From NCBI RefSeq assembly GCF_035917415.1, contig NZ_CP109073.1, positions 2,391,501-2,455,500 of the forward strand: 64,000 bases of DNA, given 5' to 3'. The DNA comes from Streptomyces sp. NBC_01803. Lineage in GTDB: Bacteria; Actinomycetota; Actinomycetes; Streptomycetales; Streptomycetaceae. Positions 15,649-20,866 of this stretch are shown one piece after another. The notes under the pieces were generated by a model. That model ran no database searches and had not been told where the DNA came from. It saw nothing but the letters and a program-made list of their open reading frames with translations. The position numbers were made by a program, and so were the translations under genes. The stretch's first letter is position 1. Each line of letters begins with the position of its first letter.

Positions 15649-16608
15649 TCAGAACGCCGCCGCGGCGGCCACCAGGCGGTGCGGCGCGGCGCCGGTCAGC
15701 AGCGTCGTGAGACCGCTGAGCACGTCCGGGCCCAGATACCAGTCGCCCGTGTGGTCCACGCAGTACAGCCGTCCGTCGCGGTCCACCACGAGCAACGCCG
15801 TGCCGCCGGCCTCCTCGCCCAGCGGGCACAGCTCGGTGCCCAGCGCGCGGCCGAGTTCGCCCAGGGTGCGGGCCCAGTGCAGGCCGCGCAGCGGGTCGAT
15901 GACGACGCCGGTCGCCGCGTACGCCTGCCCGGGGCCCTGCGGCGACAGCGTCAGCGCGCCGAGCTCGGCCCACGTCTCGAAGGCGGCCGGGAACAGCGTG
16001 TGCGGGTGGCCCTGCGGCGAACGGTGGCCGCTGAGCACGTCCGCCCACCGCTCGGCGCGGGCCGCGTGCCGCCGACCCGGGCTCCAGCCCCCGGCGGTCA
16101 GGGCCTGGTCGGCGCTGCCCGCCGACCACGGGCCGCCCGCGGCGGGCGCGTCGGCCGACATCGCCACCGCCACGTCCGGCGCGGCGCTGACGCTGCGCAC
16201 GCCGAGGCGCGCGAGCAGCACGGCGCAGGAGCGGCAGTGCGGGGCGTACTCGCCGTGCTGCGGGTCGCCGTCCTCGCGGATGTGCCGCGTGGTGATCCCG
16301 GCGTCCGCCAGGGCGATCCGGGCGGCGGTGAGGTCGTGGGCTGCCGCCTCGGTGAGGCAGCGGGAGAGCAGGAACGGCTCGGGGCAGCGGCCGAGGTGGC
16401 GCTCGCGCTGCCCCGTGCCGAGCCCGTCGAGGATGTCCGCGACCACCGGGTGGAGGTCGGGGGCGGCGGCGGCGCGGCTCGCGGTCCCGGTGAGCGCCTG
16501 GGCGCGGGCGGGAACGGACAGCGCGGCGGCCGTGGTCGGCAGAATGCCGTCGCGGCGGTGCCGGAGCACGGGAGGCACCGGGCCGTGGGTATCCGATATC
16601 ACGTGCAC
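15649..16608 (-). CDS. YwqJ-like deaminase domain fused to a SUKH-3 immunity domain
   Basis: A protein of about 319 residues with two parts. The first carries deaminase-type metal motifs: ERHLGRCPEPFLLS near residues 68-82 and HGEYAPHCRSCAVLL near 118-132, the PCxxC-like pair. The second (about 157-319) begins AGGWSPGRRHAARAERWADV and ends with the ELCPLGEEAGG, VVDRDGRLYCVD and WYLGPDV segments seen in SUKH-3. YwqJ-type deaminases act as toxins and SUKH proteins as immunity factors in polymorphic toxin systems; here both are in one chain. The start is uncertain: GTG at 16608 or 16602. It is divergent from the next two genes. Confidence 0.72.
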   Translation of the reverse strand: MHVISDTHGPVPPVLRHRRDGILPTTAAALSVPARAQALTGTASRAAAAPDLHPVVADILDGLGTGQRERHLGRCPEPFLLSRCLTEAAAHDLTAARIALADAGITTRHIREDGDPQHGEYAPHCRSCAVLLARLGVRSVSAAPDVAVAMSADAPAAGGPWSAGSADQALTAGGWSPGRRHAARAERWADVLSGHRSPQGHPHTLFPAAFETWAELGALTLSPQGPGQAYAATGVVIDPLRGLHWARTLGELGRALGTELCPLGEEAGGTALLVVDRDGRLYCVDHTGDWYLGPDVLSGLTTLLTGAAPHRLVAAAAAF

Positions 16609-16638
16609 GATCGTGCCACCGACACACGGAACCCATAG

Positions 16639-16654
16639 GCTGTCCGCCGACAGC
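16639..16654. promoter_or_regulatory. Palindrome in the divergent promoter of the SUKH cluster
   Basis: GCTGTC (16639-16644) and GACAGC (16649-16654) form a perfect six-base inverted repeat around CGCC. They sit in the 74-bp gap between the divergent SUKH genes and could be a shared operator. The evidence is positional only. Confidence 0.35.
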
Positions 16655-16682
16655 GTGATGTAACAGCAGGGGGCGTACCGCC

Positions 16683-17657
16683 ATGACGACAGGTCGGCTC
16701 GGGCAACAGGCCGCGCCACCGAACAGGGCCTATGCCGGACAGGTCGTGCAATTCCCCGACCCGGTGCGGGCCGCCCGATTCCCGCACGGAGTCCGCGTGG
16801 ACGCGGACGGTTTGCCCGATTTCTCACCCTACGCCAGAGCCGCCGCCGAGATCGCTGATCCGCCGGAGGGCTTCGGCGTGGACGAGCTGCGGCTGACCGA
16901 CTACGTGTCGGCCAACGCCGCGCTGCACGCCGGGGGCCACGAGCTGTGGGCCAACCTGCCGCCCGTCGCCACGCCGCACGGCTGGACCTGGCACCACGTG
17001 GCGAACTCGCGGCGGCTGGAGCTGGTGCCGGTCGAGGTGAAGGCGCTGCTGCGGCACCACGGTGGCCTGGCGACGGCGAACGTCGACCAGACCAAGCGCG
17101 GCACCCGCCCGCTGGCCGAGACCAAGCCCGTGCACTTCGCCGTGCCGCGCTCGGTCGCCGTGCCGGAGGACCGGCTGCGCGCCGCGGAGGACCGGCTCGG
17201 ATACCGGCTGCCGGAGGCGTACCGCTCGTTCCTCAAGGCGGCCGGCGGCTGCGCGCCGGTCGGCGTGGCGCTCGACGCGGAGCTGGGGCTGCTGATCGAC
17301 CAGCCGTTCTTCACGCTGCGCGAGGAGGCCGCGGTCAACGACGTGGTCTACATCAACAAATGCCTGCGCGACCACCTCACCAAGGACTACCTGGGCGTCG
17401 CGTTCGCCCACGGCGGCATCCTCGCGGTGAAGGTCAAGGGCGAGGACCTGGGCTCCGTCTGGCTGTGCCCGTACGACGACGCGCGGGACCGGGACGGCCT
17501 GACTCTCCAGCAGCGGGTCGCCGATCTGCTGCTGCCCTGCGGCTCGGACTTCGACGACTTCCTGCTGCGGCTGGCGGGGAACCCGCCGGAGCTGGACACG
17601 GTGGCGAATCTGATGGTCGACGGCGGATTCGCGCGCGCCGTCCCGGTGGAGGGATGA
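16683..17657 (+). CDS. HNH/WHH-type nuclease domain fused to SMI1/KNR4 (SUKH-1) domain
   Basis: A 324-residue protein. Residues about 45-130 contain LPDFSPYARA, GHELWANLPP, GWTWHHVANSRRLELVPVEV and the RHHGG segment. This is the pattern of HNH/ENDO VII toxin nucleases with a WHH motif (His104, His105, His125, His126). Residues about 160-320 match SMI1/KNR4: PEDRLRAAEDRLGYRLPEAY, RSFLKAAGG, and FAHGGILAVKVKGEDLGSVW. Nuclease and immunity-type folds are thus joined in one chain. ATG 16683 has only a weak upstream G-tract. The stop overlaps the next start (ATGA, 17654-17657). Confidence 0.75.
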   Translation: MTTGRLGQQAAPPNRAYAGQVVQFPDPVRAARFPHGVRVDADGLPDFSPYARAAAEIADPPEGFGVDELRLTDYVSANAALHAGGHELWANLPPVATPHGWTWHHVANSRRLELVPVEVKALLRHHGGLATANVDQTKRGTRPLAETKPVHFAVPRSVAVPEDRLRAAEDRLGYRLPEAYRSFLKAAGGCAPVGVALDAELGLLIDQPFFTLREEAAVNDVVYINKCLRDHLTKDYLGVAFAHGGILAVKVKGEDLGSVWLCPYDDARDRDGLTLQQRVADLLLPCGSDFDDFLLRLAGNPPELDTVANLMVDGGFARAVPVEG

Positions 17658-19798
17658 GCGCGATGGTCACGTTCGCACAGGCGCAGGAGCGCGCGGAGCA
17701 CTGGGTGAACGGCCCCGGGGGCGGCGATCCGCGCCGCGAGGTCCGGGTGCGGGAGTTCGGTCTCGGTTTCGTGGCCTGGGCCGAGGAGCCGGAAGCGGGC
17801 CCGGTCGGCGGCGGCAAGCTGGTGATCGCGCGGGACAGCGGTGACACGACGCTGTGGCCGGCCCTGCCGGTCGGCGACGTCATCCGCGCCTACGAGGAGG
17901 AGTACGGCACCCCCGCCACGGCGGCGCCCGCCGAGCCCGAGGAGCAGCGGATCGATCTGAACGTCACCTCGTTCCTGCTGACGCCGCCGCAGTGGCTCCA
18001 GGACGCGGCCGACCGCGCGAGCGGCGACGGACCCGAGCCGGTCCCGCCGGTGGCCGAGGCCGAACCGGAGCCAGAGCCCGAACCGGAGCCGCTGCCCGAA
18101 CCGGAGCCGGAGCCGGAGCCGATCGCCCCACCGCCACCGCCGCCCGCGTCCGACAGCCCGTGGTCCGGCAAGGACATCGAACGGCCCGCGCCCGTCGCGG
18201 GCGGCTCGCCATGGGCGGGCGCCGACACCTCGGGCAGCGGCGCCGACGCCGAGTCCATAGCGCCCCCGGCGACCGTGTTCTCGCCGCCCGTGGTGGCCGA
18301 CCCGGGCGGCCCGCCGTCCGTCGTCGTCCCCTCCGAGGCGCGGACCGCGATCCTGCCGCAGGGCAGCGCCCTGCCGCCCACCGCCATCCACCGCGCGGAC
18401 CCGCCTGCCGCGCCCGCCGCCCCGGCCGGAACGCCCGTGGGCCCGCCGCCCCGTGCCGGCGGCGGCGCGGCCGACCTCGCCAACGCGGACACCGCCAAAT
18501 CGGTGACCGGACCGCCGGCCGGGCCCTCCGGCGGCGGCACGCGCGGCGCCCTCCCGGTGCCGCCCCCCGCGCCGCCCGGTGCCAGGCCGGGCGCGGCACC
18601 GCCGCCGCCCAGGCCCACCGGGAACAACGCGACCGCCGACTACCTGCCGACGCAGGCCGTCGACCCCGAGTTCGTGAAGTCCCTGCGCGACCCGGGTCGT
18701 TCCGGCCGACCCCCGGCGCCCGCACCACCCCCCGCGCCCTCCCCCGTTCCGGCACCGGCACCCGTGCCCGCGCCGCCGCCCCCGCCCGGTGGCCCGGGCT
18801 ACGGCTATCCGCCGCCCGGCCTGCCGATGGTCGGCTCCGGCTACATGGCGGTACTGCGCTACCGCGCCCCGGACGGCTCGGAGCAGCAGCTCATCCGCCG
18901 CTCCGCGCCCGGGATGCCGCACCCCGAATGGCAGTTGCTGCACGAGCTGCACGCCATGAACGTGCCGCCGCAGCAGGTGCTGGAGTTGCACACCGAGCTC
19001 CAGTCGTGCGAAGTGCCCGGCGGGTACTGCGCGCGCATGATCCGCGAGACCTGGCCGCAGGTGCGGATCACGCACACCGCCGCGTACGGCCGGGACTTCG
19101 CCTCCCGGCAGGCCGGGGTCAGGCATCTGGTGGAACACCAGGACGAGCTCCAGCAGTTCGCGGACGGCCCGGCCCGTTCCGCCCCGGTCCGCGTGCCGTT
19201 GCCGCAGCAGCAGCCCGCGCCCGCCGTCGGCCTCGACGTGATCGGCCAGGAGCTGGCGCACGCCTTCGGCCCGCAGGGCGTCTTCCGGTACACCGCGCAG
19301 GCCGTCTCGCGCCAGGGCGTGCCGGAGATCGTGGCGCAGACCCTCGTGTGGGCCGGACTCCCGTTGGAGATCAGCCCGTTCTTCTGGGCGCAGGCCCAAC
19401 CGGGCCGCCCGGTCCCGACCCTGGCCGAGCTGGCGATGGAGCGCGGTGTCCAGCCCGCCCCCGACGCCGGCTCCTACCTGGTGATGGGCACCGACTTCGG
19501 CCGCCAGTTGTGCGTGCAGTACGGCACGGCGCACATCGTCGCCGTGCCGCTGGAGGCCGCGCCCGGCGGAGCGCCGGTGCCGCCGCAGTTCGTGAACGCG
19601 TCGCTGCCGCAGTTCGCGCGCTGCATGGCGCTGCTGGGCCGGATGTGGCGGCTGCGGCTGGGCCTCAACTCCGAGCAGGCGGGCCGCTGGACGACCGACT
19701 TCCAGGCCCAGCTCGCCTCGCTGGACCCGGTGGCGGTGGCCGACCCGGAGAGCTGGTGGTCCGTGCTGCTCGAACAGATGTGGGACGGTCTGCTGTAG
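17654..19798 (+). CDS. YrhB-like domain, Pro-rich linker, deaminase-like domain and SUKH-4 domain
   Basis: A 714-residue multidomain protein. Residues 1-85 (MVTFAQAQERAEHWV ... LVIARDSGDTTLWPALPVGD) form a YrhB/Imm35-like domain. About 120-400 is a Pro/Glu- then Pro/Gly/Ala-rich linker. About 400-510 (GYMAVLRYRAPDGSE) carries the HPE motif and SCEVPGGYC, resembling toxin-type nucleic-acid deaminases. About 530-714 (VIGQELAHAFGPQGVFRY ... GSYLVMGTDFGRQLCVQYGT) matches SUKH-4. ATG 17654 overlaps the upstream stop; ATG 17663 is an alternative. No signal peptide is present, so a cytosolic role is likely. Confidence 0.72.
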   Translation: MSAMVTFAQAQERAEHWVNGPGGGDPRREVRVREFGLGFVAWAEEPEAGPVGGGKLVIARDSGDTTLWPALPVGDVIRAYEEEYGTPATAAPAEPEEQRIDLNVTSFLLTPPQWLQDAADRASGDGPEPVPPVAEAEPEPEPEPEPLPEPEPEPEPIAPPPPPPASDSPWSGKDIERPAPVAGGSPWAGADTSGSGADAESIAPPATVFSPPVVADPGGPPSVVVPSEARTAILPQGSALPPTAIHRADPPAAPAAPAGTPVGPPPRAGGGAADLANADTAKSVTGPPAGPSGGGTRGALPVPPPAPPGARPGAAPPPPRPTGNNATADYLPTQAVDPEFVKSLRDPGRSGRPPAPAPPPAPSPVPAPAPVPAPPPPPGGPGYGYPPPGLPMVGSGYMAVLRYRAPDGSEQQLIRRSAPGMPHPEWQLLHELHAMNVPPQQVLELHTELQSCEVPGGYCARMIRETWPQVRITHTAAYGRDFASRQAGVRHLVEHQDELQQFADGPARSAPVRVPLPQQQPAPAVGLDVIGQELAHAFGPQGVFRYTAQAVSRQGVPEIVAQTLVWAGLPLEISPFFWAQAQPGRPVPTLAELAMERGVQPAPDAGSYLVMGTDFGRQLCVQYGTAHIVAVPLEAAPGGAPVPPQFVNASLPQFARCMALLGRMWRLRLGLNSEQAGRWTTDFQAQLASLDPVAVADPESWWSVLLEQMWDGLL

Positions 19799-19960: not shown

Positions 19961-20866
19961 ATGACGGGCTTCGGCATGGCACGCGGCCGGGGCTACCGGC
20001 CCTCGCAGGTGGATCAACGGCTGGCAGAGCTGGCCGCGGAGCGCGACCTCGCGTGGCGGCGGCTGGCCCGGTTGAGCCTCCGGGTCGAGGAGATGACCCG
20101 CGAGGCCGAACGGCTGGCCACCGCCCTGGCCGCGCTGCCGCCACCGTCGTTCGACTCGCTGGGCGAGCGGGCGGGCGATTTGCTCACCGAGGTCGAGACG
20201 GAGGCGGCCGAGTTGCGCGCCGCCGCCGAGGCCCGGGCGGGCGAGCTGCTGGAGGCGGCCGAACGGGCGGCACGCGGGCTGCGCGACGACGCCAGGGCGG
20301 CGGCGGCCGGGCGGCGCGGCGCGGCGGACGCGGCGGCCGAGAGCACGCTCGCCGCGGCGGAGGCGTTCGCGACCCGGGTGCTGACCGAGGCCCGCCGCCG
20401 GGCCACCACGGTCCGGCGGGAGGCCGACGCGACGCTCGCCGAGGCGACCCGGCGCTGCGAGGCGATGGTGGCCGAGCAGAGCCGGAGTCAGGCCAAGGCG
20501 GCACGCGCCCTGCACGAGGAGCTGACGGCCCGCCAGGCGGAGACCGACGCGCGCCTCGCGGAGCTGGCGGCGCGCGGCGACACCGCGCTGGCCCGCGCCG
20601 AGCGGGAGCTGGCCGACGCCGAGGCGGAGGCGAAGGCCCGCGAGGAGGCGGCCGACGCGCGGCGCGGCCAGTTGCTCTCGGACGCCCGCGTGCGGCGCCA
20701 GCGCGTCGACCGGGAGACCGAGCGCGTCCTGCGCGAGCTGGAGGAACAGGCCGACCATGTGCGTGCCCACCTGGCGCACATCCGCGCCACCCTGGCCGCC
20801 CTGACCGGCCGCGCCCCGCGCCGGCCCGGCACCGAGCCGCCCGCCGACTCGGCGGGACGCGGGTAG
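19961..20866 (+). CDS. Coiled-coil protein with DivIVA-like N-terminus
   Basis: A 301-residue, mostly helical protein. The N-terminus GRGYRPSQVDQRLAELAAER resembles the DivIVA/Wag31 start that senses membrane curvature. Almost all of the remainder is heptad-rich Ala/Glu/Arg sequence (EAERLATALA, EADATLAEATRRC, AEREL), consistent with a long coiled coil. Similar Streptomyces proteins are annotated as cellulose-binding or cytoskeletal filament-like (FilP/Scy-type). ATG 19961 follows CGGGGA. It lies 73 bp upstream of glmU but its role is not tied to it. Confidence 0.7.
   Translation: MTGFGMARGRGYRPSQVDQRLAELAAERDLAWRRLARLSLRVEEMTREAERLATALAALPPPSFDSLGERAGDLLTEVETEAAELRAAAEARAGELLEAAERAARGLRDDARAAAAGRRGAADAAAESTLAAAEAFATRVLTEARRRATTVRREADATLAEATRRCEAMVAEQSRSQAKAARALHEELTARQAETDARLAELAARGDTALARAERELADAEAEAKAREEAADARRGQLLSDARVRRQRVDRETERVLRELEEQADHVRAHLAHIRATLAALTGRAPRRPGTEPPADSAGRG

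Follow-up and report, generated by a model that had tools for sequence, protein, structure and literature searches.

The window analyzed here is a stretch of 64,000 nucleotides from Streptomyces sp. NBC_01803 (contig NZ_CP109073.1, positions 2,391,501 to 2,455,500), whose genome consists of one contig of 5.85 Mb. It carries three adjacent genes, designated A, B and C, whose products combine toxin-type deaminase or nuclease-like domains with SUKH immunity domains. We read this cluster, with about even confidence, as a domesticated deaminase module that is not secreted, is gated by SUKH domains and serves inside the cell. This reading is based on the nearly genus-wide presence of the genes at a fixed chromosomal place, on the invariant active-site residues of two deaminase domains and on the missing export signals. 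The features of the cluster are as follows (window coordinates).

15649..16602, minus strand: gene A, 317 amino acids, YwqJ-type deaminase fused to SUKH-3 (Pfam, AlphaFold)
16201..16572, minus strand: YwqJ-deaminase domain of A with C94-P-E96 and C144-x2-C147 (PF14431, 67.3 bits, E 2.1e-18)
15691..16113, minus strand: SUKH-3 domain of A (PF14433, 145.5 bits, E 1.7e-42)
16683..17657, plus strand: gene B, 324 amino acids, WHH nuclease-like domain fused to SUKH-1 (Pfam)
16797..17078, plus strand: WHH/colicin-DNase-like domain of B with H104, H105, K120, H125 and H126 (PF14414, PF12639)
17163..17567, plus strand: SUKH-1 (SMI1/KNR4) domain of B (PF09346, 44.2 bits, E 3.7e-11)
17654..19798, plus strand: gene C, 714 amino acids, overlapping B by ATGA at 17654-17657 (open reading frame, Pfam)
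17654..17938, plus strand: N-terminal Imm35/YrhB-like domain of C, a weak call (PF15567 below the cut-off)
18029..18823, plus strand: Pro/Ala/Gly-rich linker of C, poorly conserved
18836..19138, plus strand: XOO_2897-type deaminase domain of C with H423-P-E425, C452 and C459 (PF14440, 127 bits, E 3.4e-37; deaminase fold)
19244..19777, plus strand: SUKH-4 domain of C (PF14435, 167 bits, E 5.9e-49; SUKH fold)

Apart from the Imm35-like call, each Pfam match named for A, B and C exceeds its curated cut-off. Thus, with the same exception, the domain assignments made in an earlier note from the sequence alone were confirmed, and the ATGA overlap between the second and third genes was found as described. 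The residues listed there are also present, namely C94, C144 and C147 of A (Cys75, Cys125 and Cys128 in the earlier numbering; ours follows protein P0001), H104, H105 and H125 of B, and C452 and C459 of C (formerly Cys451 and Cys458). Further residues which that list did not contain are Glu96 of A, the H423-P-E425 motif of C and Lys120 of B, which occupies a usual His position. A crude hydropathy scan revealed no signal peptide, hydrophobic leader or membrane helix in the three proteins, in line with the earlier claim that export signals are missing. Likewise, no secretion, trafficking or processing domain was among their Pfam matches, and searches of NCBIfam and PADLOC gave no match (PADLOC: 0 families for 3 proteins, E 0.1). 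The literature searched, which did not include the original 2011 SUKH and deaminase papers and was in part available as excerpts, contained no experimental study of these genes.

Distribution, place and constraint

B was matched in 189 of the 199 sampled genomes of the genus, and C likewise in 189. Neither gene was detected in three genomes, each of 640-790 contigs, so that assembly gaps are likely. Weak matches of C were obtained in G001, G008, G455, G486, G501 and G535 (E about 1e-89 to 1e-10) and a weak match of B in G530 (4e-96); all of these could be paralogues or partial matches. In a sample of relatives B was found in 34 of 37 genomes of the same genus (own genome included), in 13 of 15 of the same order and in 0 of 9 others. 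The class sample of 345 genomes yielded B in 38 and C in 41; among the matches listed, 33 rows of the same genus were positive for both genes, and the others were distant or partial. In the family sample C was matched in 59 of 61 genomes, and by our own count 54 of the 61 showed at least 60% identity over nearly the whole 324-residue query; in two genera of the family the matches of C were weak, partial or absent. Within the named genome records, S. specialis has the nearest B protein (92% identity).

For closer comparison the best 80 of 551 stretches from relatives were used; they stem from named genomes and are skewed to close kin. Gene neighbourhoods were counted in the 51 of these loci with a length of 19 kb or more. 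The order A-B-C is intact in 50 of them, the exception being L022, which lacks A, and no variable toxin cassette was found at the locus, since the same homologues follow in order in these 50 of 51 loci. The gene glmU lies within the locus in 51/51 cases, a coiled-coil gene designated D follows 3' of the block in 48/51 and mazG stands beside the block in 8/51. The orientation of the block relative to glmU differs between lineages. In 37 of the 51 loci the arrangement is glmU(-) HK(+) A(-) B(+) C(+) D(+), where HK is a sensor histidine kinase, and in 6, as in the window, it is surA mazG A(-) B(+) C(+) D(+) glmU(+). Consequently, the earlier view of a resident, not mobile, cluster holds, and its position between mazG and glmU is constant with respect to glmU but not to mazG. 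A mobile or phage origin was also considered and was rejected because of the conserved chromosomal place.

The median identity to the window is 81% for B, 83% for the C-deaminase, 78% for SUKH-4 and 66% for the N-terminus of C; it is 57% for the A-deaminase and 56% for SUKH-3, compared with 74% for glmU. The corresponding pN/pS values, which were obtained by a simple calculation against the window with GC bias uncorrected and serve for comparison only, are 0.31 for B, 0.28 for the C-deaminase, 0.33 for SUKH-4, 0.45 for the N-terminus of C, 0.70 for the A-deaminase and 0.62 for SUKH-3 versus 0.40 for glmU. By this measure B, the C-deaminase and SUKH-4 look to be under tighter constraint than glmU.

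Defence genes are usually patchy in their distribution. A defence role, which the earlier note had kept among its options, is disfavoured because of the near-universal presence, the fixed place and the strong constraint of the cluster, and PADLOC did not match it either, which concerns defence systems already described. For the same reasons we consider it unlikely that the cluster is a genus-wide intracellular alarm, in which the sensing of phage or stress would make the SUKH domains free the deaminases and so lead to self-harm in the form of programmed cell death or abortive infection. Toxin-type enzymes that are gated and carry no export signal would nevertheless fit the layout of abortive infection, and multicellular bacteria such as Streptomyces are described as rich in conflict systems (PMC7159879, here and below cited for excerpts of the text).

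Active sites and domain architecture of the three proteins

All 76 aligned loci retain the three Cys residues of A. A 58-row alignment of A contains 54 deaminase-bearing rows, 53 of which retain all four residues C, E, C and C; in the one exception (P0150) the two later Cys are replaced by Ala, and the remaining 4 rows are SUKH-3 proteins. In C, His423, Cys452 and Cys459 are kept in 61/61 aligned loci, and the deaminase Glu was found in all 42 rows of the alignment, divergent rows included. Structure prediction, which had been proposed as a check of the deaminase fold, supported the assignment: the AlphaFold models of A (pLDDT 89.7, pTM 0.87) and of residues 391-714 of C (pLDDT 92.1, pTM 0.90) both fit a deaminase and a SUKH fold. 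The model of A matched blasticidin-S deaminase and 9k3e (DddB/BaDTF3). For the model of C, APOBEC3H, CDA, DddA and 9k3e were matched by the deaminase part and YobK, Syd and Knr4 by SUKH-4. A Foldseek search with the whole chain of A gave nothing significant, and no significant solved relatives of A or C were found by sequence. Thus, A and C show both hallmarks of the zinc-type deaminase superfamily, the deaminase fold and an [HC]xE motif with two Cys ligands, and the SUKH superfamily assignment is supported by profile as well as fold. The fold is shared with DddA (6u08, 8e5d), DddB/BaDTF3 and APOBEC3H; unlike these, the deaminases of the cluster carry their own SUKH domain, and no delivery to other cells was seen.

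Both domains of A are visible in 76 of the 80 loci. They are fused in one stop-free frame in 15 loci and split in 61, where a stop or frame change and 35-364 bases separate the deaminase and SUKH-3 matches. Three of the remaining 4 loci have neither A domain and one has part only; among these 4 are L029, L036 and L038, in which B lies near a contig end. The fusion stressed in the earlier note is therefore real for the window but is not the defining state, as 61 of 76 loci encode the two domains separately. The A query matched all 61 family genomes, which represent 17 genera, and in 59 of them, by our reading of the matches, the deaminase is either fused to SUKH-3 or encoded next to it; in G561 the pair is 2.5 kb apart and in G593 it lies on two contigs. 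A stop-free match across both domains occurred in this sample only in the window's own genome. In a tree of B a single supported group (100/99) comprises all 64 non-fused loci other than L022; the fused loci lie outside it, and the direction of the A fusion is not readable from this tree alone. Because the split form is seen across the family, outside the window's clade, the fusion is likely the derived state. Adjacent genes elsewhere and a fusion in one clade suggest that the deaminase and SUKH-3 proteins form a physical complex. The window's own genome additionally contains a weak second deaminase plus SUKH-3-like pair (G000:C1:4622763-4623474; 34% and 29% identity) with stops in the deaminase match.

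The N-terminus of C had been called YrhB-like. Imm35 (PF15567) gave sub-cut-off matches to 3 of 9 homologous N-terminal segments (best E 0.0043) and no match to the window's own segment, which leaves this call as a weak one carried by homologues. The linker of C could be aligned in 42 of 80 loci with a median coverage of 0.24. A search with residues 391-714 revealed second copies in some members of the genus and further copies in family f19. Seven divergent homologues of C were fetched, which have the same three-part order and 34-37% identity to the window; both Cys are lost in 7/7 and His in 6/7, and Glu is kept in 7/7. Proteins of the Imm35-like/deaminase/SUKH-4 type that are second copies or distant and have lost the Cys ligands of the deaminase were noted in L108, L109, L110, L111, L112, L113 and L116. 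The reverse order, SUKH-4 before the deaminase, with active-site residues kept, occurs in L114 (7593-8414) and L115 (8308-9129).

The WHH profile matches B well (PF14414, 51.2 bits versus a cut-off of 25.1; PF12639, Colicin-DNase, 37.7 bits). H104, H105, H125 and H126 are kept in 80/80 loci. Position 120 is Lys in the same 80/80 loci; a wide search showed Lys there in 119 of 120 proteins, the remaining one being unmatched by the pattern. L085, a divergent B copy of the same genus, retains WHH and Lys. In f3, a family of the same order with about 42% identity, all 5 loci have A, V or T at position 104 and H or N at position 120; B stands there without A or C within 18-19 kb. A 14-row alignment of B leaves H105, H125 and H126 as the only ones of these positions without any change. 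The metal-binding His residues are presumably those corresponding to colicin E9-type sites. The complete His metal site of a WHH nuclease (HNH/Endo VII) is absent from B, and with Lys120 at a usual His position and the loss of His104 in f3 B is probably not a standard metal nuclease, contrary to the earlier note. By sequence the only solved relative of B was a weak match to RhsP, in whose alignment a His seems to lie opposite Lys120 and a gap falls at H125/H126. The RhsP-WHH : RhsPI complex (PDB 8bd1), which appears to be the Vibrio parahaemolyticus type VI secretion system effector of PMC12724144, differs from B: RhsP is secreted as an effector and its catalytic residues are conserved (PMC12724144), whereas B is one cytosolic chain.

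Catalysis might also be beside the point, the toxin domains being kept within regulatory complexes built on SUKH, where they would provide a decoy or a scaffold for binding. Lys120 in place of the usual His, the loss of His104 in five B relatives of the same order and the dead deaminase sites of the seven divergent C homologues would agree with this explanation. We nevertheless rate it as rather improbable, since the compared loci show no change in the deaminase ligands of A or C, which is unexpected under relaxed catalysis.

Upstream region and neighbouring genes

Two further features adjoin the cluster.

16636..16643, plus strand: TAGGCTGT, promoter-like element upstream of B whose -10 TAGGCT fits TANNNT; in 75/79 upstream regions, window included
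19961..20866, plus strand: gene D, downstream neighbour, coiled-coil and weakly DivIVA-like; in 48/51 loci, family matches below the cut-off

TANNNT is the motif used for HrdB (PMC6344877). TAGGCTGT has 76 copies within 1.37 Mb of loci, and its single copy in the window (0.28 expected) is not unusual; CATAGGCTGT occurs once in the window's own genome. Of 31 genomes, 9 contained the exact 12-mer GCATAGGCTGTG, fewer than were matched by its reversed control; of 10 matches to the 12-mer motif, 7 lie directly upstream of B by coordinates. For the 10-mer, the reversed control occurs 2 times in the own genome versus 1 for the motif. The upstream region of glmU contains an equally conserved 8-mer (62/67). 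A B-private autoregulatory site was therefore rejected, and TAGGCTGT is more simply read as a conserved -10 element of the ordinary kind, because conservation upstream of glmU is similar and the 12-mer is no commoner than its reversed control. Control by bldA was rejected as well, as A, B and C contain no TTA codon. Two more elements precede B. At 16606-16615 the window has a perfect palindrome, CACGATCGTG, which by eye is the same or nearly the same in L001, L003, L004, L005 and L007. At 16667-16674, about -15 from the start of B, lies the conserved CAGGGGGC (75/79 upstream regions), an unusual-looking ribosome-binding region.

The sensor histidine kinase is present in 43 of the 51 loci of at least 19 kb, where its usual position is between glmU and A (e.g., L072, 7003-8325), and was not found in the 8 of these loci with the window's arrangement. 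From gene order and gene type, the S. coelicolor counterparts would be SCO3118 for SUKH-3, SCO3117 for the deaminase, SCO3116 for B and SCO3115 for C; likewise, the histidine kinase would be SCO3119. We take glmU to be SCO3122. According to PMC4021200, SCO3122 adjoins prsA2. SCO3119 is a listed orphan histidine kinase (PMC9739842) and may be under the negative control of AtrA (PMC13170358). Synteny points to gene D as the orthologue of SCO3114, an intermediate-filament-like candidate; this coiled-coil protein of 33 kDa has a rod domain, and its mCherry fusion was diffuse in a strain whose morphology was wild-type (PMC2680258, PMC6224456). In S. coelicolor SCO3119 and SCO3114 flank the interval SCO3115-SCO3118 as the kinase and D flank the module in 37/51 loci, whereas SCO3120-SCO3121 have no counterpart in the loci inspected. 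The locus tags SCO3115-SCO3118 occurred in no main text found by the literature search, as far as its excerpts extend.

Proposed function of the cluster

Fusions of this kind are already known. Zhang et al. 2012 report that SUKH domains are occasionally fused to toxins and immunity domains, and their immunity table places YwqJ and XOO2897 deaminases under the SUKH entry (PMC3482391). New here are the core status of the cluster, the invariant deaminase sites, the altered site of B, the dead divergent copies and the fusion history of A.

We propose a vertically inherited cytosolic module that would have been built from domesticated toxin and immunity domains. A and C would act as zinc-type deaminases, and the SUKH partner would bind the deaminase and gate its activity; the one-clade fusion, the confident two-domain models and the known role of SUKH argue for such gating. 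For C and the window's A the partner would be provided in cis, and for A in most relatives by the product of the neighbouring gene. B would retain the WHH fold without the full metal site; having presumably lost cleavage, it would most likely bind nucleic acid or a partner and not cut. The deaminase target would be a pool inside the cell (RNA, single-stranded DNA or nucleotides), and the module may thus serve an internal physiological role in growth or development. A more specific version, in which a core self-gated module of toxin-derived deaminases, restrained by SUKH in cis or trans and with B as a non-cleaving, nucleic-acid-binding WHH guide, edits the cell's own RNA or DNA during growth or development, is offered only tentatively.

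Immunity genes usually diversify. The sequence and place of the cluster are conserved, which makes it improbable that it is a polyimmunity module that neutralises deaminase or nuclease toxins of competitors and uses its fused toxin domain for regulation or as a decoy, even though all three proteins carry immunity-type domains and SUKH polyimmunity as well as toxin fusions are on record (PMC3482391). The domain families are identical to those of polymorphic toxin systems with SUKH immunity (PMC3482391), but an ordinary toxin-immunity locus is very improbable, as the cluster has no trafficking, secretion or processing part among its matches, its toxin end is invariable instead of a variable cassette, and it belongs to the vertically inherited core of the genus.

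Toxin-type deaminases are familiar as weapons and as tools for base editing. Eukaryotic editing deaminases were reportedly proposed to derive from toxins (Iyer et al. 2011). If the domesticated module proposed here is real, toxin-type deaminases would have been recruited for internal physiology in Streptomyces, which would be a bacterial parallel to that origin. Orthologues are present in genetically tractable Streptomyces, so that the question can be addressed by simple deletions.

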